NCBI GenBank assembly: GCA_003024785.1
Contig: PUQB01000368.1
Coordinates: 124,001 to 188,000 of the forward strand
From: Selaginella tamariscina
Taxonomy: Eukaryota; Streptophyta; Lycopodiopsida; Selaginellales; Selaginellaceae
DNA: 64,000 nt
Direction of reading: 5' to 3'
The translations under genes were made by a program, and so were the position numbers. Under the pieces are notes generated by a model. That model searched no databases, had not been told where the DNA came from, and was given only the letters and a program-made list of their open reading frames with translations. Positions within the stretch are counted from its first letter, which is position 1. Each line of letters begins with the position of its first letter. Below, in pieces: positions 1 through 26,032 of this stretch.

Positions 1-206
1 CAAACACACACACACACACACATATACATACACAGGAGTGTGCGTGTGTGTGCGAGAGATAAAACTAATAAATAATAAAATTATACAGATAAACACACAC
101 ATATATATGTGTGTATATAGATATATAACCCATATGAATATATAAGCAATATATATAAACTAGTGTTGTATACTATTTGTTAATATGCATTGATTATATA
201 TATATA

Positions 207-243
<37 letters not shown>

Positions 244-314
244 TGTAAAGCAGTGCGCGTGTGTGTGGGAGAGATAGATCAATAAAAAAAATTTACAGAT
301 ACTGGTACAACATA

Positions 315-373
<59 letters not shown>

Positions 374-418
374 AGATAAAACTAATAAATAAATTTATAC
401 GCACACTCCTATACATAT

Positions 419-451
<33 letters not shown>

Positions 452-1028
452 GATCTCACCTGTGTGCACAGCCGCCGCCGCCGATTTCACAGCCGCCGCC
501 TCTTGAACCTAAGAATATACCTAAACCCTAAAGGAATTAAATATATATAAACCCTAAAGAATATTCCTTCTGAGAATATACTTAAACCTTAAAAAGAATA
601 AAATATAGATTCGCCCTAAACGAATATTCTTTCATTTATATATAGCGCGTGCGTGTGCGTGGGTGTATCACATACACCTCAAAAATATAAATCATGCAGG
701 GATTTAACATGTGTGTGTCCATGAGAGTGTTAAAGTTTCATGTGTATCAATACATACATACACATTGCATATATTAATACACATAATATATACATACACA
801 CGTGTATACACACAGACATACACACATATTAGTAACATAATATTAGAGAGACCGAGTACATATTATAATCATGCATGGTGTATGTTGAGAAGAGAGACAG
901 TACATATTAACATAGACATGCATGGTGTGTATGTATGAGAGAAGACAGAAAGTACACATATATACATGCACACGTGTATACACACAGACATACATACATA
1001 TTACATGAGTAAATTCATTGTGTTACAT
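1..1028. repeat. Microsatellite-rich region, no gene seen
   Basis: The stretch is dominated by (CA)n/(TG)n and (TA)n runs, for example around 210-241, 330-370 and 428-451. The short open frames are translations of these runs and are not genes. A short GCC-rich patch near 470-505 is the only non-repetitive part, and it shows no recognisable coding signal. Confidence 0.85.
519..640. repeat. Degenerate tandem repeat mixing AACCCTAAA and GAATATTC
   Basis: Four imperfect units, about 28-34 bp apart, carry an AACCCTAAA-like motif, and most are followed by GAATATTC. The first half resembles the plant telomere unit. The second half is a palindrome that recurs at 1.4-2.0 kb and 6.85-6.92 kb. Confidence 0.55.
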
Positions 1029-1029
1029 A

Positions 1030-1056
1030 TTAGGGTTTAGGGTTTAGGGTTTAGGG
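1030..1056 (+). repeat. Short interstitial telomere-like array
   Basis: About four head-to-tail copies of TTTAGGG are visible. TTTAGGG is the usual telomere unit of land plants and many green algae. With so few copies this is an interstitial tract, such as a promoter telo-box or an end-joining scar, and not a chromosome end. Confidence 0.8.
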
Positions 1057-1284
1057 TTGCTCCCAACAAGCTTAATATAAATATTACACATGTAAATTCA
1101 ATGTGTTACATACAGTCACACAGATTGAGTACATATATCATACATGCGTTGAACATGATGTTTTCAATAAAGAAGCAACCTATTTCTTCAGTTTGGTTTA
1201 GGGTTGTGCATGTGTGTGCATATGTGTTTTTGTAAGTTCTTGTAATGCGTGTGTAAATTTATGATTGTGTTTATATATGTGTGC

Positions 1285-2060
1285 AAAACAAACATCGAAT
1301 AATTAAGAAAATAATATTAATAAACACACTAGGAACATATTTTAAATTATACATAATAATATATGATTTTATCTAATATATAGCCATATATAGTTTTAAT
1401 AATATATATTAATTTAATATTGATAAAAAGGTTTAACATTGAAATATTCTTGAAATAATAAGAAATTAATTGAGAAAATCCCATTAATATATACAAATGT
1501 AAATTAAGTACTCAAATAATTAACTAAATTAATTATCATAATCATGTTTAATATTGGAATATTCTTGGAATAATAAGAAAATAATAAAGAATATCCCATT
1601 AATATAAAGAAGATTAATTACTCAAGTAATTAAGGAAAATATTAATATATATTATTAAAACTATATATGACTATATATTAGATAAAATGATGTATTATTA
1701 TGTATAATTTAAATATGTTCATAGTGTGTATTAATTTAATATTGATAATAAGGTTTAACACATGAATATTCTTGAAATAATAACAAATTAATTGAGAAAA
1801 TCCCATTAATATATACAAATGTAGAATAATTACTGCAAAATTAAGAACAAGACTAATTTAATTATGATAATCAGGTTTAATATTAGAATATTCTTCAAAT
1901 ATTAATAAAATATTAAAGAATATCCCATTGATACTAGGAAATGAAAACTAAATACTCGAGTAATTAAGAAAATAATAATAAAAACAGACTATGAATATAT
2001 TTTAAATGATACATAATAATATATCAATTTATTTATTGTATAAGTATATATTTAATATAT
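1285..2060. repeat. AT-rich tandem and inverted repeats
   Basis: Three to four diverged units each hold a GAATATTC-type motif, then AAAGAATATCCCATTRATA, then a TAATTAAGAAAATAAT-like motif. Superimposed on these is a long inverted repeat. The arm at about 1325-1420 is nearly the reverse complement of about 1628-1730, both beginning CACACTA(G/T)GAACATAT. The arms plus roughly 200 bp of loop look like a fold-back or MITE-type element. No coding potential is seen. Confidence 0.6.
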
Positions 2061-2334
2061 ATATATAATATAAATATACTTGAATACTAAGAATGTAGAA
2101 TATAGTCTAAAATTCGTAATATTAAACAGCTTGAATCACTTGAATAACATTAAATGCAATTTTAAAATACTCATTGGAACTGGAGAGTATATATGTCAGA
2201 GTGTCGGATATTTGTGTCAACTCATCTTAAATTTTATTTTCTGTTCTTTTTAAAAAATTTGAATTTTTGACATATGTATTGTCGGTCTGACATGTAAATT
2301 TGAAAATGCATTTAATTTCCCACTCAAATTCAGA

Positions 2335-2483
2335 TCTGGTTCTTTCTCCGGCAAGGGTTTCTTCATTTCTGTATTTTTCACTCTTTAGATCTTCTTTTTC
2401 TTCATAGTGATCATCTCAGGGCGAGATTAAATTGGGTGCTATTCTTTATAGGAAAGCACGGCGCCTTCAGTGCTGTTTACAAG
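2335..2483 (+). promoter_or_regulatory. Probable 5' leader exon of the DUF7869-type gene
   Basis: A pyrimidine-rich stretch (TTCTTTTTCTTC) typical of plant 5' leaders is followed by a less AT-rich segment ending in a strong donor, CAA|GTAAGTATT, at about 2483. A good acceptor, TTTATGTGCAG, lies just before 3380, so a leader intron of about 0.9 kb is plausible. That intron would contain the whole palindrome array. No transcript evidence is available. Confidence 0.4.
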
Positions 2484-2644
2484 TAAGTATTATAAACAAA
2501 TTTAAAAATACTTATAAAGATTCACTCTCTTACATTCTCTCTTAAAATTACAATTTAGGGGTTTAGGAATGCATTAGGATTATAATATATTCCGTTAGGG
2601 ATTTATCCCGTTTAAATATCCTTTTAACTTAATATTCTAGGTTA

Positions 2645-3245
2645 ACCGGGCGGCGGGATTAATCCGGCCATTTCTTTTGCCTCTTCGAAGAGGTGGCGGG
2701 ATTAATCCCGCCACCATCTCCGGGCAATGCTTCTCCGCCACTGAAAAAGAGTGGCGGGATTAATCCCGTCGATAACCTTCTCAACTGATGAAGAGTTACC
2801 AGAATTTATTAGAAAGAGTTGTCGGCGGGATTAATCCCGCCAACCATTTTAGGAGGCAGGGAAGGGGTGGCGGGATTAATCTCGCCACCACTTCCCTGTT
2901 TTAAAGATTTGGGGACAGGATTTATCCCGAGATCTCTTTGAAATCATAGTTTTGGAGAGAGTTATGTGCGGGTTTAATCCGCCACCCATTCCCCGTCGTA
3001 AGAATTGTGGGCGGGATTAATCCCGCCTTGGACTCCCTCGACAAGGAAGAGCCGGCGGGATTAATCCCGCCGCCTCTTCCTCCTCGGGGGAGTCGGCGGA
3101 TTAATCCCGCCGACTCCTCCGGCGAGGAGTCGGCGGGATTAATCCCGCCGACTCTCTCCGAAGGGGTTGAGTCGGCGGCGGGATTAATCCCGCCGACCGT
3201 TCCTCGTCGGAGGGATTCGTGGGCGGGATTAATCCCGCCCATCAG
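2645..3245. repeat. Array of 13 GGCGGGATTAATCCCGCC palindromes
   Basis: Thirteen copies of an 18-bp palindrome start at about 2652, 2695, 2753, 2824, 2869, 2914, 2967, 3010, 3054, 3094, 3132, 3177 and 3222. Most are 38-58 bp apart, typically 44. Copies 6 and 7 are the most decayed. Flanking bases differ from copy to copy yet pair within a copy: GGT/ACC around copy 2, GGAAGAG/CTCTTCC around copy 9, GAGTC/GACTC around copies 10 and 11. Because the unit is palindromic, both strands show spurious open frames rich in GGINPA or AGLIPP. The array is GC-rich in an otherwise AT-rich region. It probably serves as protein-binding sites or hairpins tied to the gene that follows. Confidence 0.9.
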
Positions 3246-3385
3246 TTGTATTAATCAAACATGAGATATTATCTCTAAACATAATTATGCATATGCATAT
3301 TATTAAGTAACCGTAATTCAGATTTCTTAGAAATATTGCATAAACAGATATCATAAATAATACAATTATTTATGTGCAGGACAAT

Positions 3386-6300
3386 ATGTTTAATACTGGA
3401 GATAAAGTATGTCTTCTTCGGAACAACGAGATAGTTGGCACTGGAACTGTGGAAGTTCGAGATAATAATGCATCATGTCACAATATTGCCCAAGGATCTT
3501 GTGTGTACGTATGGGTGAACACCATTTACAAGCATGTTGAGGTTCTGGGAATGGAATTTGAGGAGGGTTCTCCTGTATTGTGGAATTTGGATGAAGTCAA
3601 GGCTGACACAGAATATGCAGAGTCACAAACAAATAGTAGCACGAGTTTACCAGATGATGGCTTGCCTGCTGTATGGATGAGGTGATTCTCTTTCTTCGTG
3701 AGATTGAAGTCGGAAGAGGCATCATCACAGCTATAAATCCAATGGAAGCAGTGTCAGAAGAGAAACTAGGGTCCGACTTCGTGGGTGTAGTTGTGACAGA
3801 GGTTTCACCTAATGGCACATTGTATCCTGGATCCCTCGTGAGGTGGCGAACATCTGAATTAAGACGGCAAGATGGTTCAACATATTCTGGGTTGGATTTC
3901 AATAATAACAACCCGGAAGAACAACTCATATTTGAAGAGGTTCCTTGCATTGGTCCTATTGTAAGAAAAAGGCGATTCATGGGTTGTAGATCTTCCCCTG
4001 CAAGTTTCAGCAAGAGGGTAAAGATGGATCCTACATCTTCCGAAAGTGTTACGAGCATTTCCACGATTGACTGTTGCAAGAAGAAGTGTTGTCAGATGGC
4101 AGACCGGAATGAAATTACCCAATGTAGACATGTCTTTCGTATGCTCACCCAAAAGCAAAGGCATGAGTTTGTATATGCTGCACTAACTGGGTGTATTGAT
4201 GGAATGGCCTCGGACACAGGTTATCAGAGTACATCCATGGTATTTAATAAGGTGGCCATCTGCTTCAAAGCTTGGTACAGTATATACGGGATCCCAAAGA
4301 CCACGTTCTACCGTCGGAGGGATGAGTGGCTAGATGGAGCGCGAACCTCAGTTCATGGGAACACTCTTGGTCAAAACCCGCTCTCACATCATGGCAGCCA
4401 TAGAGATACTCAAGGCTTTTGTGGAAGCAAATGCAGACAGGATGCCTCACAAATGCCGAACCACAAATGCAGGGGTCAGGGAAAATCTCAAGGTTTTACC
4501 TTCAATCTACACTCAATTGAAACTGTGTGAACATGTGAACAAGTGCCTCAGTTTGATGGGGCTCCAAGCAATCTGCACTGGTACCTTCAACAACATATGG
4601 AATACTCATTTTAAGGATGTGGAGATTGCAAAACACTCTAGCTTTTCTAAGTGTGACACTTGTACATCATTGAAGGCTGCAGAGGCTTGTGCAAAAAACC
4701 TTGGTGGAGATCACTACCATTCAAAGGAAGATGGAGGCCCACATGATTGCACAACAAACTTGCCGGTCTCAGTACTATGCACACCGCATGCTTTCTGTGT
4801 CACGCCCATCAGAGTACCTGTGCTTGATCCATGACAAGATGATCATTCAAAGACCAGCATTCCAAAGCTCTTTGCAACACCAAAGTGCCTTGGAAATGTC
4901 ATGAAACTTCCGATTTCATTGACAGGTGTGCTAACACATGGACACGTTGTGAGTCATATGGACACTTTTCACTTCCACATTGGTCTAGCGACTCCAATTT
5001 CACTATTGGGTCGTTAGCCATGTGTTCAGAAACCTTGAAGCCCACTCACAGACAAGTCCTATCAGTGATCTCAAAGTGAAGAAACAACACCTCAAACCTT
5101 TACATAATGCTCTCATGAACACATCTGCACTTGAGGCTACTTGGGAATATGAGAGGCATTGTCAGCAACCTGCACAAAAACAGATGGCCCTGTTGAGAGT
5201 TCAGGTTCAGTGGAGGGATCTAGCTCAAATAGTGTACATGTGTCCTCAACATCAAATAAGCTTCCTCGTCATTTGCTTTTACAGATGGATAATTGTGCAG
5301 GCGAGAACAAAAATAGGTAAATCATTTTACTTAAGGGTTTCTCAAGCTCATACTTACTTTTATTTTCTAGATATGTGCTAGCATACTTGTCAATGCTTGT
5401 TGCCAAAGGTGTGTTTGAAACAATCACGCTCAGTTTCCTTATGGTTGGTCACACTCATGAAGATATTGATGCGTTCTTCAGCAAGGTCTCCAACTCTACA
5501 AAAAGGACAAGTGCACTTACCTTACCGCATATGATGAATCTTTTTGAAAATTGCATCTCCAAAAAAAGTTGTGCTTTGCTTGTGACTGAGGTGCCAGACT
5601 TCAAAAAATTTCTCAAGGAGTATATAAAAGAAGGGAGTGATTCTTTAGTTGGTCACCTTGTGCCGCTACAATTCTTTTTCTCCATACGAGATGGTATACC
5701 TATTATGCAGTACAAGTTACGGCCATCAGAGCAGGAGTGGTTACCGAAAGAGGGCTTAATGCTCTTCAAAAGTGGAGAGGATGGAAAGCCACTTCTCCCA
5801 GAAGGACAACCAGACCCTATTCCATTGAGTGCCCAGCTCAAGGAACAAGAGGTTATTATTGATGGCATCAAAAAATATGTGGCATGGGTTCAAAAATCGA
5901 TGCCAAAGAATTCTGATAAGGCAACTGGTTACTCAGAACTATATAAGCATGTGGTCAACTATTGGGAGACTGTTGTTCGAGAGTTGGAAGGGCCTACTGT
6001 CACAAGTACAGAATTGCAACACCCTTTCTGGCCTAAAACAAGGTGGCGAGAGGAGATTGAAATGACATCACTGAGCACAGACGACATAGAAGCCAGTAGT
6101 GATGTGGAAGTGCAAACCCCACACTTTGTTGGACAAAGGAACCAAAAACCTAAAGCATACTTTGATTGCTGCAAGGATCTTCAAAAACTAATGATGGTTC
6201 TCATTACTCCAGATGCGTCATATAATCAGCCTATTTGGATGGGTCAAATTATCGACACACCTGAAGTAATCACAAAAAATAGTATTGTTAAGGTTGCATG

Positions 6301-6499
6301 GTTCAAACCACAAAAAAGGCGACACGAGAAGGAGAGCGAAAGATATAATGGATGCCTAGAGAAAACATGGTCTCCCAATCAAAAAGACCCAGCATGTTTT
6401 ATAAATGTTAAATCCATTCGATATGGGTGGATGTCAAGAAGCGTTGATAAAGTCACGATTAACAAAACTGCAAGGGAATGTATGTTTTCTGAAGCTTAA
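3386..6499 (+). CDS. DUF7869-type transposase-like protein (several frame shifts)
   Basis: This is a large mobile-element-type protein of the family I recall as DUF7869, which has a probable RNase-H-like fold. The N-terminus (from ATG 3386) resembles the small plant transposase domain seen in Ptta/En/Spm proteins and seems to occur twice. A Cys-rich segment follows (KKCCQMADRN at about 4080), then KCDTC (about 4650). Next come three acidic motifs in the order expected of a DDE-like nuclease: LIHDKM (about 4824), QMDNCAGENKNR (about 5284-5316) and VGHTHEDID (about 5444). A 54-bp intron at 5317-5370 joins NKNR to YVLAYLSMLV. The last open frame (5375-6499) is intact and ends in a basic tail. 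Upstream, the reading frame changes several times (near 3680, 4340 and 4840), so the gene is either decayed or carries assembly indels. Terminal inverted repeats were not found. The family name is from memory; the motifs are seen directly. Confidence 0.7.
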
Positions 6500-7389
6500 A
6501 GCAATTACAAAATTATAAAATATCATATATTTAATATTCATAATTATTATAAACTCTTTAATAATAGTACCAAATTGTATACTTAACTATATAAATTTAA
6601 AAAATGATATGGAAGATTGACTATATTATTATAGGATTTTATATATATATTATTACTACTACAAATTTTTAATTAATAATGTTATATTTAAATATTAATA
6701 TTTTAATAACAACATCAATATTTATATAATGTACCTCTTATGCTCTTCCTTAATTGTTATATTAGGCAATATATTATATAATTTAATACATTCTACTTTT
6801 ATAATGTTATTAATTTTTGTTCAATGAATGCTATAATTTATTAAAGGGTAGAATACAAAATAGAATATTCTAAAGAATATTCTCTTTTCAAACATATATT
6901 CTAAAGAATATTCCTTTAATATTAGAAAATGCTAATTAAATAGCTAAAATTGCTAATTATTAGGAAATGGGACTATAGCCATGCCCATTTTAGTTACAAC
7001 TTGCATTTAAAATTGTTAGAGTTGGAACTCTCAATGGCGAAAATTCGGTTTGTTCCTCAGCTTACTTTTGAACATTTTATGAGAGACTTTACCCAAAGAA
7101 AAAGGTGGATGACCCTAAGTATCATCAATTAAATTGACAACTAACTTTAATTAAGTATAATATCAAAAATTTGACATAAAATCACATAGAATTATAGATA
7201 TTTTTTTAAGTCCTAAAATGCAAGGGTATTTAGGTCAATATAGATAAAAACAACATGGGTATGCCTATTTCCTACACACATGTAAATGTTTTTAACTACA
7301 TTGTTAAAGGTAGAAATTTACAAGCATATGACATCTTATTGTGGAGAGAATAAGGATAGGAAGATTTGTAAGTAGCTTGGAATAAAGAT
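6500..7389. repeat. AT-rich spacer with a dispersed repeat copy (6840-7010)
   Basis: No gene is seen. At about 6860-7010 lies a repeat with two AAAGAATATTC motifs, then GCTAATTATTAGGAAATGGG, then CCCATTTTAGTTACAAC. A clearly related copy lies at about 33720-33870 inside a CEP131 intron. Similar motifs also occur at 1.4-2.0 kb. This looks like a short non-coding transposon family. Confidence 0.55.
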
Positions 7390-8397: not shown

Positions 8398-8954
8398 TGT
8401 TCCAGGAACCAGGAAAAGAGCAGGATTCCAAGAATAAGGAGGCTTGACTCAGGAATAGGACAAAGAGCAGGACAGGAACTAGGAACTCAAGAGCAAGACT
8501 GGAACCGGATAGGATCGGAGAGAGATAGGAACAGGATGATCCGGGAGCCAGACAGGAAGGCGCATGACAGGATCCAGGAACAAGATAGGATCCAGAAGCA
8601 GAATAGGATCCGAGAGCAAGAAAGAGCAGGAGGCAAGGAGCAAGACACGAACAAGACAAGAACAAGAATGATCGTAGAATGCTGGTGTTGATAGTAACTG
8701 ATTGTACAACAAATTAGGTTGGAGCTTTTATGCTCACAACTCCAAGCTAATCTAGTCATGAGTCTAATCTAGTCATGAGCTAAGAATAGTGACCCTTATC
8801 TCTAGGCATATCCGTAGCAATTCCTATATGCATATCTCACAGGAATATCCTGTAGGATATCCTGCAGGCATATCCTGTAACCCGTATCCTGTATCCTGCA
8901 TCCTGCATCCTGTATCCTGTATCCGGAATCCTATATCTGTATCGGGTTGTGACA
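8398..8954 (-). repeat. Chromovirus LTR (3' LTR in element sense)
   Basis: In element sense it begins TGTCACAACCCGATAC, closely matching 13212-13784 and the solo copy at 25412-26032. The LTR itself is built of degenerate short units, CCTGTATCCTGCATCC on one side and GGATCCGGGAGCCAGAC-like on the other. Confidence 0.9.
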
Positions 8955-13211: not shown

Positions 13212-13784
13212 TGTGAAGCCACGATCCAGGAACCAGGAAAAGAGCAGGATTCCAAGAACAAGGAGGCTTGACTCAGGAATAGGACAAAGAGCAGGACAGG
13301 AACTAGGAACTTAGGAGCAAGACTGGAACCGGATAGGATCCGAGAGAGACAGGAGCATGATAGGATCCGGGAGCCAGACAAGAAGGCACAGGATAGGATC
13401 CAGGAACAGGATAGGATCTAGAAGCAGAATAGGATCCGAGAGCAAGACAAGAGCAGGAGGCAAGGAGCAAGACACGAACAAGACAAGAATAAGAATGATC
13501 GTAGAATGACTGGTGTTGATAGTAACTGATTGTACAACAATTAGGTCGGAGCTTTTATGCTCACAACTCCAAGCTAATCTAGTCATGAGTCTAATCTAGT
13601 CATGAGCTAAGAATAGTGACCCTTATCCTCTAGGCATATCCCGTAGCATATCCTATATGCATATCCTACAGGAATATCCTGTAGGAATATCCTGCAGGCA
13701 TATCCTGTAACCCATATCCTGTATCCTGCATCCTGCATCCTGTATCCTGTATCGGAATCCTGTATCCTGTATCGGGTTGTGACA
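13212..13784 (-). repeat. Chromovirus LTR (5' LTR in element sense)
   Basis: TG...CA ends, closely matching the partner LTR at 8398-8954. The target duplication CCATC follows at 13785-13789. Confidence 0.9.
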
Positions 13785-17078: not shown

Positions 17079-18819
17079 TGTCAGAGTTTTAACCCAAAGG
17101 GCCAACACATGGCAACACATGGCTGCCAGGTGGTCATTTGGCGTCATCACCCTGTGTGAGCAACGCTAAGTTTCCCAGAACAACCCCAACGACCCCTAAG
17201 GTTAGACTCTAATGCCCAAGTGGACAGGAGACTTAGGGTTTAGCCTAAGTCTCCTTAGAGTGTCTACCCCCAAAACCCTTGAGGGATAACCCTAGTTGAC
17301 TTAGGGTTTAGCCTAAGTCTCCCTAGAGTGTCTGCCCCCAAAACCCTTTGAGGGATAACCCTAGTTGACTTAGGGTCTTGCCCTAGAGACCTAAGGCTCA
17401 TGCCCTACCCCATCAAGGAGGACGTGTGTTCCACACATACCCTGGACAGAGCTAAGGCATCGTCACTTACCCCTTGAGGAATCACCCTCATCCGGGAGTA
17501 CAACCCCTTTAGGGCGACAAGGGTACCCTAAACCACGACTAACCCCTAAGGGTTTGAGTGGCCAAGTCATACCCTATACCTAGGGCTAGTACTTAGTGCG
17601 CCGAGGCGGACACGAGTGTGCGCCGTAGGCGGACACGAGTGTTCTGCTAAGCAAACTCCCTAAGGCTAGGTTTAGGATAACCCTAAGCACATGACCTTGC
17701 GAGTGCCTTATGAAAGGGCTTCTGCTAATGAGCTTAGGTTGTTCAACCCCTGGATTCCAAGGTGAACACTCCCCTAGCCAAGTGTGCCAAAGCACACCTA
17801 TTACGAGACCTAACCTCCCTTGAGCAGATGCCTAAGGCTTAGCACCCTAGTGCAAGCACAAGCATGCATGTTTGCTAGAGTATCCAACCCCTTAGCGACA
17901 AGCCCATGACATAACCCCAAAGGGCGTGCCTCGGGCATTGTACCATGTGACGTTTAGCCCAGTGTCACATCTCCATGTGACATTGCCTTCCATGATGTGG
18001 GTTATCATGCCATAGCCCTTAGATTCAAGAGTTGCACCAAGTGCCACAAACGTGGCTCCTAAATGCCGACTCTAGAACCCCTCAATGAACCCTCAGGAAC
18101 CAAGTAACATGAACCTGTCAAACAAGATCCCACGCTCACAGTTGGACAAGGACACGGATGTGCCTTGCTTGGCCGTGAGTGCTACACCTAGCTTGACGTG
18201 AAGGAGGAGGTTGGAGACAAGCCTCAACCTCTGCCTCTTGGAACGTGCATTCCGACAAGACCTCCCAGGCATGGATTCGCCAACGTTAAGGGTAAGTTAC
18301 CTCGAAGGTGGGACGTACCCCTGGCATCTGGAAGTTAGGGCGGCACAATAGAGGGTTGTGCCTTGACAACACAAGCTAGAGCTTGCACCCTCACTCCTAC
18401 ATACTACCTTATTTATGTGACAGAGCCCCCCCCCCCTTTTCCTGTTTACATAAGTGGGCTAGCACTGAAATCTCATTCCCATAGGGAACATACTTGGTGA
18501 GTTATCCATCAACCCCTAAACCCTAACCTGTCAAACCTGGGGGTATTTCTAAGCATATCCGACATGCCGAACTCACCGGAACTAGCCATTAATCCAACCA
18601 GGACACAGAAAACGAGGGTAAGAGTTTTCTAGAAGGTAAGTGCTACCTTCGCTTAGAGTTTCTTGAGATAGCTAAGGATAGCCGGCCGGACTACCCCTAA
18701 ACACCTAAGTGCACTAAGTGGGGCTGTTTCTCACTACATCTAGGGCTTGTCAACATAGTACAGTAGGTAACAACAGTCAACGTCCAAAGTAAAGAGGAGT
18801 CATAGTAAAAACTATGACA
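17079..18819 (-). repeat. LTR of the LARD-like element (left)
   Basis: About 1.74 kb. It holds a direct duplication of about 70-75 bp near 17230-17370 (GACTTAGGGTTTAGCCTAAG then TAGAGTGTCT, twice). It also carries many CCCTAA/TTAGGG-like motifs and a C-homopolymer near 18427. Confidence 0.9.
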
Positions 18820-22779: not shown

Positions 22780-24550
22780 TGTTAGAGTTTTAACCCAAAG
22801 GGCCAACACGTGGCAACACATGGCTGCCAGGTGGCCATTCGGCGTCCATCACCCTGTGTGAGCAACGCTAAGTTTCCCAGAACAACCCCAACGACCCCTA
22901 AGGTTAGACTCTAATGCCCAAGTGGACAGGAGACTTAGCGTTTAGCCTAAGTCTCCTTAGAGTGTCTACCCCAAAACCCTTGAGGGATAACCCTAGTTGA
23001 CTTAGGGTTTAGCCTAAGTCTCCCTAGAGTGTCTGCCCCAAAACCCTTTGAGGGATAACCCTAGTTGACTTAGGGTCTTGCCCCTAGAAGACCTAAACAG
23101 GCTCATGCCCTAACCCCCATCAAGGGACGTGTGTTCCACACATACCCTGGACAGAGCTAAGGCATCGTCACTTACCCTTGAGGAATCACCCTCATCCGGG
23201 AGTACAACCCTTTAGGGCGACAAGGGGTACCCTAAACCATGACTAACCCCTAAGGGTTTGAGTGGCCAAGTCATACCCTAGACCTAGGGCTAGTACTTAG
23301 TGAGGACACGAGTGTGCGCCGTAGGCGGACAAGAGTGTTCTGTTAAGCAAACTCCCTAAGGCTAGGTTTAGGATAACCCTAAGCACATGACCTTGCGAGT
23401 GCCTTATGAAAGGGCTTCTGCTAATGAGCTTAGGTTGTTCAACCCCTGGATCCAAGGTGAACACTCCCCTAGCCAAGTGTGCCAAAGCACACCTAGTTAC
23501 GAGACCTAACCTCCCTTGAGCAGATGCCTAAGGCTTAGCACCCTAGTGCAAGCACAAGCATGCCTGTTTGCTAGAGTATCCAACCCCTTAGCGACAAGCC
23601 CATGACATAACCCAAAGGGCGTGCCTCGGGCATTGTACCATGTGACGTTTAGCCCAGTGTCACATCTCCATGTGACATTGCCTTCCATGATGTGGGCTAT
23701 CATGCCATAGCCCTTAGATTCGAGAGTTGCACCAAGTGCCACAAACGTGGCTCTTAAATGCCGACTCTAGAACCCCTCAATGAACCCTCAAGAACCAAGT
23801 AACATGAACCTATCAAACAAGATCCACGCTCACAGTTGGACAAGGACACGGATGTGCCTTGCTTGGCCGTGAGTGCTACACCTAGCTTGACGTGAAGGAG
23901 GAGGCTGGAGACAAGCCTCAACCTCTGCCTCTTGGAACGTGCATTCCGACAAGACCTCCCAGGCATGGATTCGCCAACGTTAAGGTAAGTTACCCCGAAG
24001 GTGGGACGTACCCCTGGCATCTGGAAGTTAGGGCGGCACAACAGAGGGTTGTGCCTTGACGACACAAGCTAGAGCTTGCACCGGGAGAAGAGTAACAAGC
24101 TCAGTCATGAACCCAGGAACCCTCACTCCTACATACTACCTTATTTATGTGACAGACCCCCCCCCTGTTTTCCTGTTTACATAAGTGGGCTAGCACTGAA
24201 ATCTCATTCCCAGAGGGAACATACTTGGTGAGTTATCCATCAACCCCTAAACCCTAACCTGTCAAACCTGGGGGTATTTCTAAGCATATCCGACATGCTG
24301 AACTCACCGGAACTAGCCATTAATCCAACCAGGATACGGAAAACGAGGGTAAGAGTTTTCTAGAAGGTAAGTGCTACCTTCGCTTAGAGTTTCTCGAGAT
24401 ATCTAAGGATAGCCGGTCGGACTACCCCTAAACACCTAAGTGCACTAAGCGGGGATGTTTCTCACTACATCTAGGGCTTGTCAACATAATACAGTAGGTA
24501 ACAACAGTCAACGTCCAAAGTAAAGAGGAGTTATAGTAAAAACTATGACA
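22780..24550 (-). repeat. LTR of the LARD-like element (right)
   Basis: About 1.77 kb, aligned end to end with 17079-18819 with scattered small differences, including a short extra segment near 24080-24115. It is the 5' LTR in element sense, because the tRNA-Met primer site abuts it. Confidence 0.9.
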
Positions 24551-25411
24551 CTCTAGATGTCAGAGTTTTTACTCGAAGGGCCACCACATGGCAACATGTG
24601 GCTGCTAGGTGGCCATCCGGTGTCATAACCCTGTATGAGCAGCGCTAAGTCTCCCAGAACCACCCCAATGACCCCTAGGGTTAGACTCTAATGTCCAAGT
24701 GGACAGGAGACTTAGGGTTTATCCTAAGTCTCCCTAGAATGTCTACCCCCAGAACCTTTGAGGGATAACCCTAGTTGACTTAGGGTTTAGCCTAAGTCTC
24801 CCTAGAGTGTCTGCCCCCAAAACCCTTGAGGGATAACCCTAATTGACTTAGGGTCCTGCCCTAAAAGACCTAGACAGGCTCATGCCTTAACCCCCATCAA
24901 GGAGACGTGTGTTCCACACATACCCTCAATAGGGTTAAAGCATCACCTTACATCTTGAGGAATCGCCCTCAATTAAGTACAACCCCTAAAATGACGACGA
25001 GGGGTATCTTGACCCACAACTAATCCCTAAGGGTCTGAATGGCCAAGTCATACCCTGGCTCTAGGGTTAGTACCTAGAGAACACACGAGTGTCCGCATTC
25101 AGCGACACGAGTGATCCCCTAAGCATTCCTTAGAGGCTAAGGTTGGAAAACCCTAACCCTTATTCCCCAAAGGGAACCATGCCTATGTCTAAGAAGACCC
25201 TCGTTAAGGAGCTTAGGTTGTTCAACCCTCAGACATGCTCCCACATCCTGAGAACAAACACCCTTAACCATGTGTGCCAGTAAGCACACTTGGCAAAGAG
25301 ACCTAACCTCCCTTGGGCATGTGCCCAAGGCTTGGCCCTAGTCCTAAAACACGAACATGTGCTTGTCAGGTTCACCAACCCCTCGGCCTTAGGCTCGAGA
25401 CACGACCCCGT

Positions 25412-26032
25412 TGTCACAACCCGATACAGAATACAGGATTCCGGATACATGACATGGGTTGCAGGACTTTCCTACAGGATTCCGGATACAGGATATGGGT
25501 TGCAGGATTTTCCTACAGGATATTCCTACCAGAATTCCGGACACAGGATTCGATTGCAGGATATTCCTATAGGATATGCCACAGGATATGCCTAGAGGAT
25601 AAGGGACATGTGGACTCATCTTAGCCTCTGCATGCATGCAATCACTTTTGCATGCATGCAACCACTTTTGCATGCATGCCTAGATTAGCTCTTGGAGTTG
25701 TGAGCAAAAAGCTCCGACCTAATTATTGTACAATCAGTTACTATCAACACCAGTCTTACTACGATCAATTTCGTCTTGTCTTGTTCTCGTTTTGTTTCCT
25801 GTCCTGTTCCTGTCTCGCTCCTGTTTCCTGTCCTACCCCTGGATCCTATCCTGCTCCGGGATCCTGTCCTGTTCCTGTCTCGCTCCCGGATCCTACCCTG
25901 ATCCTATCTTGCTCTTAGATCCGTCCTGTTCCTATTTCCAGTTCCTGTCCTGCTCTCGGTCCTGTTCCTGAGTCAGGCCTTCCTGTCCTTGGAATCCTGT
26001 TCCCTTCCTGGTTCCTGGATCGTGGCTTGACA
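25412..26032 (+). mobile_element. Solo LTR of the chromovirus family, nested
   Basis: Begins TGTCACAACCCGATAC and ends GGCTTGACA, flanked by target duplication CCCGT (25407-25411 and 26033-26037). At 621 bp it is slightly longer than the two LTRs of the chromovirus at 8.4-13.8 kb and lies in the opposite orientation to them. It shows the family was active after the LARD solo LTR landed. Confidence 0.92.

Follow-up and report, generated by a model that had tools for sequence, protein, structure and literature searches.

The window, by which we mean the whole 64-kb stretch of DNA that was analysed, opens inside a DNA transposon and carries, next to a transposase-like gene, an array of the palindromic core GGCGGGATTAATCCCGCC. 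Searching the window at three or fewer mismatches returned 11 matches, all inside 2652-3239 and seven of them exact (starting at 2695, 2824, 3010, 3054, 3132, 3177 and 3222), against none in 100 dinucleotide shuffles of the same sequence. Two degenerate cores centred at about 2922 and 2975 bring the total to 13, so the thirteen-copy palindrome array of the original prediction is real. A motif scan added a 14th copy, weak and isolated, 5′ of the array at 2598. We call this array B; a second one, array A, lies at about -971 to -518, beyond the window's left edge, on the 5′ side of the neighbouring gene.

1..7006, unstranded: right part of the array-bearing DNA transposon (alignment of eight copies, ends and gene directions)
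2483..3379, + strand: intron predicted in the right gene's 5′ untranslated leader, containing array B (splice-site consensus only)
2598..2609, unstranded: isolated upstream motif copy GGGATTTATCCC (motif scan)
2652..3239, unstranded: array B, with the palindromic core in 13 copies, seven exact (motif search)
3386..6499, + strand: DUF7869 (DDE-type transposase-like) gene, frame-broken in the window copy (PF25273, E 9.8e-27; homolog model)
6980..7006, - strand: right terminal inverted repeat, 27 bp (end comparison)
7007..7010, unstranded: target-site duplication TTAA of the window copy (end comparison)

Several further claims made for the array were borne out. Its units had been placed about 44 bp apart, and centre-to-centre distances, counted over spacers shorter than 40 nt and pooled over related copies of arrays A and B, peak at 44-45 bp, a class that takes in 150 of 277 spacings. 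It had been described as GC-rich within an AT-rich setting, and the arrays of the four elements measured have a GC content of 0.52-0.59. Its assignment to a first intron or leader is backed by splice-site consensus, with a predicted GTAAGT donor at 2483 and TGTGCAG acceptor at 3379, each matched in eight of the nine copies searched.

The host transposon and its divergent genes

Alignment of eight copies identified array B as an internal part of a repeated 12.7-kb DNA transposon. In the window copy the element spans C691:118289-131006 (about -5711 to 7006 in window coordinates), its left end falling outside the window, and the eight excised copies measure 11.9 to 14.8 kb, R7 among them having masked or missing bases. 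Its termini, ATGCACGTTGTAACTAAAGTGGGCATG and, inverted, ATGCAAGTTGTAACTAAAATGGGCATG, are identical at 25 of 27 positions. The element has imperfect 27-bp terminal inverted repeats (TIRs) with two mismatches and a 4-bp target-site duplication (TSD), as expected of a DDE/RNase H-like DNA transposon. The TSDs are AT-rich and exact at four of seven independent sites (TTAA, ATAA, ATGT and TTAT); among the other three, one reads ATAT if a terminal base has been lost, one matches at three of four bases and one has a degraded left end. In this count copies R2a and R2b, which have common flanks, were scored as one site. R2a (G000 C1:898958-912566) and R2b (C1:917618-931174) have identical flanking sequence and lie about 18.7 kb apart, and therefore represent one segmental duplication rather than two insertions.

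The element is abundant. Across the genome (300.7 Mb, 1391 contigs) we counted 27,128 exact copies of the 18-mer core, and among the first 100 listed, 95 lie in the window element's family, whose copies here are complete, truncated or read in part, and five in a related family. Linkage of the array to the DUF7869 gene family, on which the original prediction had hung a functional connection, accordingly held for 100 of these 100. Over 1161 bp of the transposase gene, all 40 copies scored among 1316 candidates are 100% identical, which indicates that the element was active recently. The set of cores has spread through the genome with the element.

The right gene has coding exons at about 3386-5316 and 5371-6499. 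Modelling of a DUF7869 homolog suggests that the domain probably folds as an RNase H-like transposase, in agreement with the earlier description of the gene as transposase-like, and together with the element's ends this model points to a DDE-type transposase in a large, recently active transposon. The DUF7869 matches listed (n = 115) include bryophytes, coral and molluscs. We found no paper on DUF7869 by name in the literature searched, and a sequence search of the PDB gave a single, uninformative match (E 0.9). DUF7869 is a domain of unknown function, and the element, if the model is right, would link it to DDE-type transposases. A diverged piece of a DUF7869 gene is also present at L039 5036-6169, with 39-51% identity over two longer stretches; no cores lie upstream of it within the sequence read.

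The left gene lies on the minus strand, divergent from the right one. Its C-terminal part matches NIF/FCP1-like phosphatases, and Pfam recognised no DNA-binding domain in it. A ParB-like domain, suggested by eye, was dropped: Pfam found nothing, a protein search had no match at E ≤ 0.001 among 2575 candidates, and the single-sequence model reached a pLDDT of only 35.8. In the three copies read, the left gene has an ATG preceded by a TTTTGCAG acceptor, and array A lies about 300 bp 5′ of that acceptor. This leader acceptor is matched in six of eight copies, being absent from the window's own copy and from R7, and since the acceptor region comes without an identified donor, an intronic position of array A is something we infer. 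An internal intron of about 60 nt in the left gene, at window about -2310 (C691 near 121690), is taken up by a lone core (GGCGGGATTTATCTCGCC in the sense of the gene) in all seven elements in which this intron was found. About four telomere-like TTTAGGG units lie at 1030-1058, between the two arrays, where the promoters would be expected.

Arrays A and B have a common core and unrelated spacers. The mean best local alignment score between their spacers was 8.18, compared with 7.99 for shuffled spacers and 21.6 within array A, and the downstream flanks of the two arrays showed no homology in the four elements compared.

A distant relative of the left gene, on L029, matches it in segments at 34-50% identity, with a single piece of 18 residues at 67%. 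The motif is matched six times in 2.4 kb there (0.28 expected; none of 1000 shuffles reached this), against one match in the next 4.9 kb of L029 and three in window positions 7101-64000. Four of the six matches lie just 5′ of the first matched residues and two in an internal intron, at L029 3290-3360, which is the same left-gene intron that holds the lone core. The relative retains the motif in its leader as well as in this intron. The asymmetric centre of the L029 motif occurs both ways round, as ATTTAT and ATAAAT. Copy R3 lies between two pieces of diverged left gene (L027 8821-8971 and L029 2702-4632), as if inserted in an older related element.

Flank pairing, inverted spacers and array turnover

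The bases outside the core had been said to differ between copies yet to pair within each copy, and this had been taken as a sign of selection on a hairpin or cruciform. Within the window's 13 copies the pairing is marginally significant (p 0.03-0.05). A copy's own flanks pair at 69 of 156 cells, compared with 59.1 ± 5.5 after permutation (p = 0.046), and contiguous runs of pairing give p = 0.032; the effect comes mainly from two copies. It was lost, however, in wider samples. Flank folding energy was slightly worse for own than for swapped partners in array A (p = 0.14, 83 unique flank pairs) and slightly better in array B (p = 0.44, 77 unique flank pairs). Position by position, pairing clearly exceeded permutation only at d = 8 in array A (z 3.9) and at d = 1 in array B (z 4.4), and at d = 4 in array B it fell below (z -3.3). 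In the related family it was below permutation overall (151 vs 166, p = 0.96, 33 copies). That flanks in other arrays pair no better than chance counts against the hairpin reading. The permutation and swap tests, along with the similar folding of arrays whose intact spacers were reshuffled, do not uphold covariation as a sign of selection and rule it out as proof of a hairpin.

The other explanation offered for the paired flanks, a copying process that yields inverted copies, fared better. The spacers are homologous copies in both orientations: the array of R6 carries TTGGACTCCCTCCGACAAGGAAGAGCC together with its exact reverse complement, and array A of R5 includes a 28-mer whose exact reverse complement occurs in R6. 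Exact reverse-complement spacers are thus found both within and between copies of the element, and where oppositely oriented homologous spacers meet at a core, the flanks of that core will be complementary. Complementary flanks in a palindrome array should therefore be viewed with caution, as they need not imply a selected hairpin.

The arrays also turn over rapidly. Among the 40 copies with the identical 1161-bp stretch, eight young ones were read, and in all eight the length from a fixed slot to the array's end differs (393, 439, 130, 351, 530, 460, 441 and 467 bp; the masked bases of one copy lie outside this stretch). Losses, tandem gains and chimeric spacers are all present in these copies. 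A strict alternation of spacer orientation, which we considered as a rule, holds for the last nine spacers of L040 and R4, is broken in most other younger copies and is absent from the older subfamily. A block a b′ in R4 occupies the place of b a′ in R6 and R5, as might be seen in a shufflon-like invertible array, an arrangement that gene conversion from a downstream copy explains equally well. General Pfam scans of the element's proteins listed no recombinase family.

The arrays may be remodelled at their palindromic cores, by template switching or by unequal recombination from one core to another, and spacers would in this way be duplicated, deleted or inverted, with unequal recombination contributing tandem gains and losses. 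As the core is palindromic, both orientations of a unit are permitted, and such remodelling would produce complementary flanks without selection acting on them. Template switching between inverted repeats is described for yeast as inverting spacers and homogenising arms (PMC8604942, in the available text), which resembles the inverted spacers and the symmetric core variants seen here, and the available text of a further report has it creating or mending perfect stems (PMC8794818), which again matches symmetric core variants. The present case differs in that the process would act on a multi-unit palindrome array within a transposon, and in that unequal recombination could also be responsible. 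The paired arrays may offer a testable case of template switching reshaping palindrome arrays.

Constraint on the core and readings of the array

Comparing matched slots between two subfamilies of the element, cores differ at 6 of 140 sites and spacers at 42 of 276, against 20 of 346 sites in the upstream and 27 of 703 in the downstream surroundings. Within subfamilies, variation amounts to 1.4% in cores, 2.0% in spacers and 1.0% in upstream sequence. Cores therefore change more slowly than spacers, and no more slowly than their surroundings; the copies compared are related, which makes these tests of constraint not fully independent. Counting unique contexts, exact cores make up 41 of 112 in array A and 45 of 94 in array B. 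In the related, diverged family (L017 and L030 1-7811), which has copy R4 inserted beside it, GT...AC borders the cores, spacers are built around ACCTTTCTAGGAGCCCTAAAAGGAGT, and a higher-order repeat measures about 480 bp. Among 33 of its cores, six are compensated perfect palindromes, five are exact and 22 are asymmetric; arm pairing exceeds permutation (p = 0.0027), and the compensated variants possibly represent just two events. The observed/expected ratio of CpG, determined in four elements, is 0.94-1.26 in the arrays and 0.63-0.73 in the spacers alone; the left gene has 0.74-0.77, the right gene 0.38-0.40, and window sequence beyond the element 0.60. Undecayed CpGs in the cores are compatible with hypomethylation, constraint or recent turnover.

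The array is a real, large-scale feature, and probably a cluster of putative protein-binding sites. With moderate confidence we favour a DNA site for a dimer, and we infer the binding itself. Each of the two divergent genes has on its 5′ side an array of the same dyad-symmetric site, array B in a predicted leader intron, and this site would be bound as DNA by a dimeric protein, encoded by the element or by the host, that would co-regulate both genes. What speaks for such a DNA site is the occurrence of a common core among unrelated spacers in two 5′ arrays, the motif kept in the L029 leader and intron, the lower divergence of cores than of spacers, the compensated palindromes of the related family and the high CpG ratio of the arrays. 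The exact reverse-complement spacers and the array lengths, different in every young copy read, fit this site combined with remodelling. Against operators stand the lack of a recognised DNA-binding domain in the left gene, cores that evolve no more slowly than flanking sequence, the modest fraction of exact cores and compensated variants that may trace to two events. As a whole, our tentative preference, a little short of an even chance, is for a pair of cis-regulatory arrays that would serve as operators of a dimeric protein and be reshaped when cores switch templates or recombine unequally. In a bolder version of it, which we regard as rather unlikely, the two operator arrays would shuffle themselves; both would consist of the same perfect 18-bp palindrome, each would sit at the leader of one divergent gene, and a single dimeric regulator would bind them. 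If this were true, the palindromic site would let units be inverted, duplicated and deleted with every site intact, so that regulatory strength would drift with copy number at each new insertion, and the more than 27,000 sites seeded by the element would form a genome-wide reservoir able to titrate or redirect the regulator.

The array could also be a passive satellite, a fast-changing minisatellite that is harmless in introns. Its unit, being a palindrome, would readily expand and undergo template switching, and its number in the genome would only reflect the success of the transposon. The losses, tandem gains and chimeric spacers of the young copies, their variable array lengths, the fewer than half of cores that are exact, the absence of slower evolution relative to flanking sequence, and the confinement of the first 100 listed cores of 27,128 to the window element's or the related family would all be expected of it. 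Such a satellite accounts poorly, however, for the same core appearing at two unrelated places, both on the 5′ sides of genes, for its presence in the leader and same intron of the distant relative, and for cores that diverge less than spacers in matched slots; we place it on the unlikely side. The introns have also suggested a function in RNA, with transcripts of the arrays folding into stable hairpins and so influencing splicing or supplying a double-stranded RNA or small-RNA pathway. The arrays lie in predicted introns, a lone core occupies another intron, and folding is strong: the minimum free energy of the window array is -369.7, whereas its dinucleotide shuffles reach -222.5 (z -20.9) and versions in which just the spacers are shuffled reach -305.0 (z -11.5), and in some younger copies (L040 and L044) an inverted block folds into one long stem. 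Across 22 arrays, taking the longest short-spacer run of each and including six of the eight young copies, real arrays likewise fold better than those with base-shuffled spacers (z ≤ -4.4 in 21, -2.5 in one). Yet when intact spacers are placed in random order and orientation, the same arrays fold about equally well (z -2.8 to +1.6), with five at z ≤ -2.0, all from the younger subfamily, and this rules out an arrangement tuned for folding as a general rule. Selected hairpins in the sense RNA predict that C>T in the right arm (giving G.U) is tolerated more than G>A in the left arm (giving A.C). In unique but related contexts the counts are 23 vs 11 in array B, which leans the RNA way, and the opposite, 22 vs 30, in array A, so there is no consistent bias. 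In Rfam, 50 matches up to E 1 were returned for window 2300-3500, every one below its family's gathering score, and flank pairing is not copy-specific outside the window. Taken together, we consider an RNA function unlikely.

A last possibility is that the sites are bound by the transposase and serve transposition itself, as the subterminal repeats of CACTA elements do. Many identical symmetric sites in two clusters would suit this role, and arrays of binding motifs are cis-determinants of CACTA transposition according to the available text of PMC2613891. But the arrays are internal, B ending 3.77 kb from the right end and A beginning about 4.7 kb from the left, and the core is absent from the terminal repeats, which makes a role in transposition very hard to credit. 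The same distances, 3.8 and 4.7 kb from the ends of the element, exclude a foldback-type element with the arrays as its termini.

Comparison with known systems and further repeats in the window

Transposons with arrays that resemble binding sites are already known. The soybean CACTA element Tgmt* has 24 repeats at one border, able to form 12 palindromes (PMC2613891, in the available text), and with En/Spm it shares with our element multi-copy, short, palindrome-forming motifs in a plant DNA transposon, read there as sites for an element protein (TNPA-like). In CACTA elements, however, the repeats are subterminal, the termini are CACTA, the TSD is 3 bp and the genes are Tnp2/TNPA, whereas the window element has internal leader arrays, ATGCA termini, a 4-bp TSD and a DUF7869 gene. 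Its termini and TSD thus exclude membership of CACTA/EnSpm. The downstream control region of Spm, which lies in its leader, is a closer analogy. The leader of the gypsy retrotransposon contains an array of sites for the host protein Su(Hw), and so offers the parallel of a mobile element whose transcribed leader carries arrayed binding sites of a host protein, but gypsy is a retrotransposon with non-palindromic sites and a single array. According to the available text of PMC3627910, the TIRs of Sola2 transposons are short and imperfect, at 12-21 bp in the amoebozoan examples, and their 4-bp TSDs are AT-rich. The AT-rich 4-bp TSD is found in the window element too, with TIRs of 27 bp; this likeness concerns ends and TSD, and the available text of PMC3627910 does not mention palindrome arrays for Sola2.

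What is unusual here is that the palindrome is perfect, that its arrays form a pair, one on the 5′ side of each divergent gene, and that a distant relative has retained it. We found no paper giving the 18-mer in the literature searched; an inner 12-mer of it does occur in two papers. The paired leader arrays may provide a testable case of a transposon regulating two divergent genes.

The remainder of the window contains other repeats. Near-identical sets of short tandem repeats (TATCCTG type) at 8569-8943 and 13384-13773, about 4.83 kb apart and in the same orientation, resemble the two ends of an LTR element. Further tandem arrays of CAGGATATTCCTA or TCCTG units occur at 25432-25601 and 25797-25933, and a common tandem unit of 67-68 bp (GACTTAGGGTTTAGCCTAAGTC...) is present at 17230-17376, 22932-23076 and 24709-24854.
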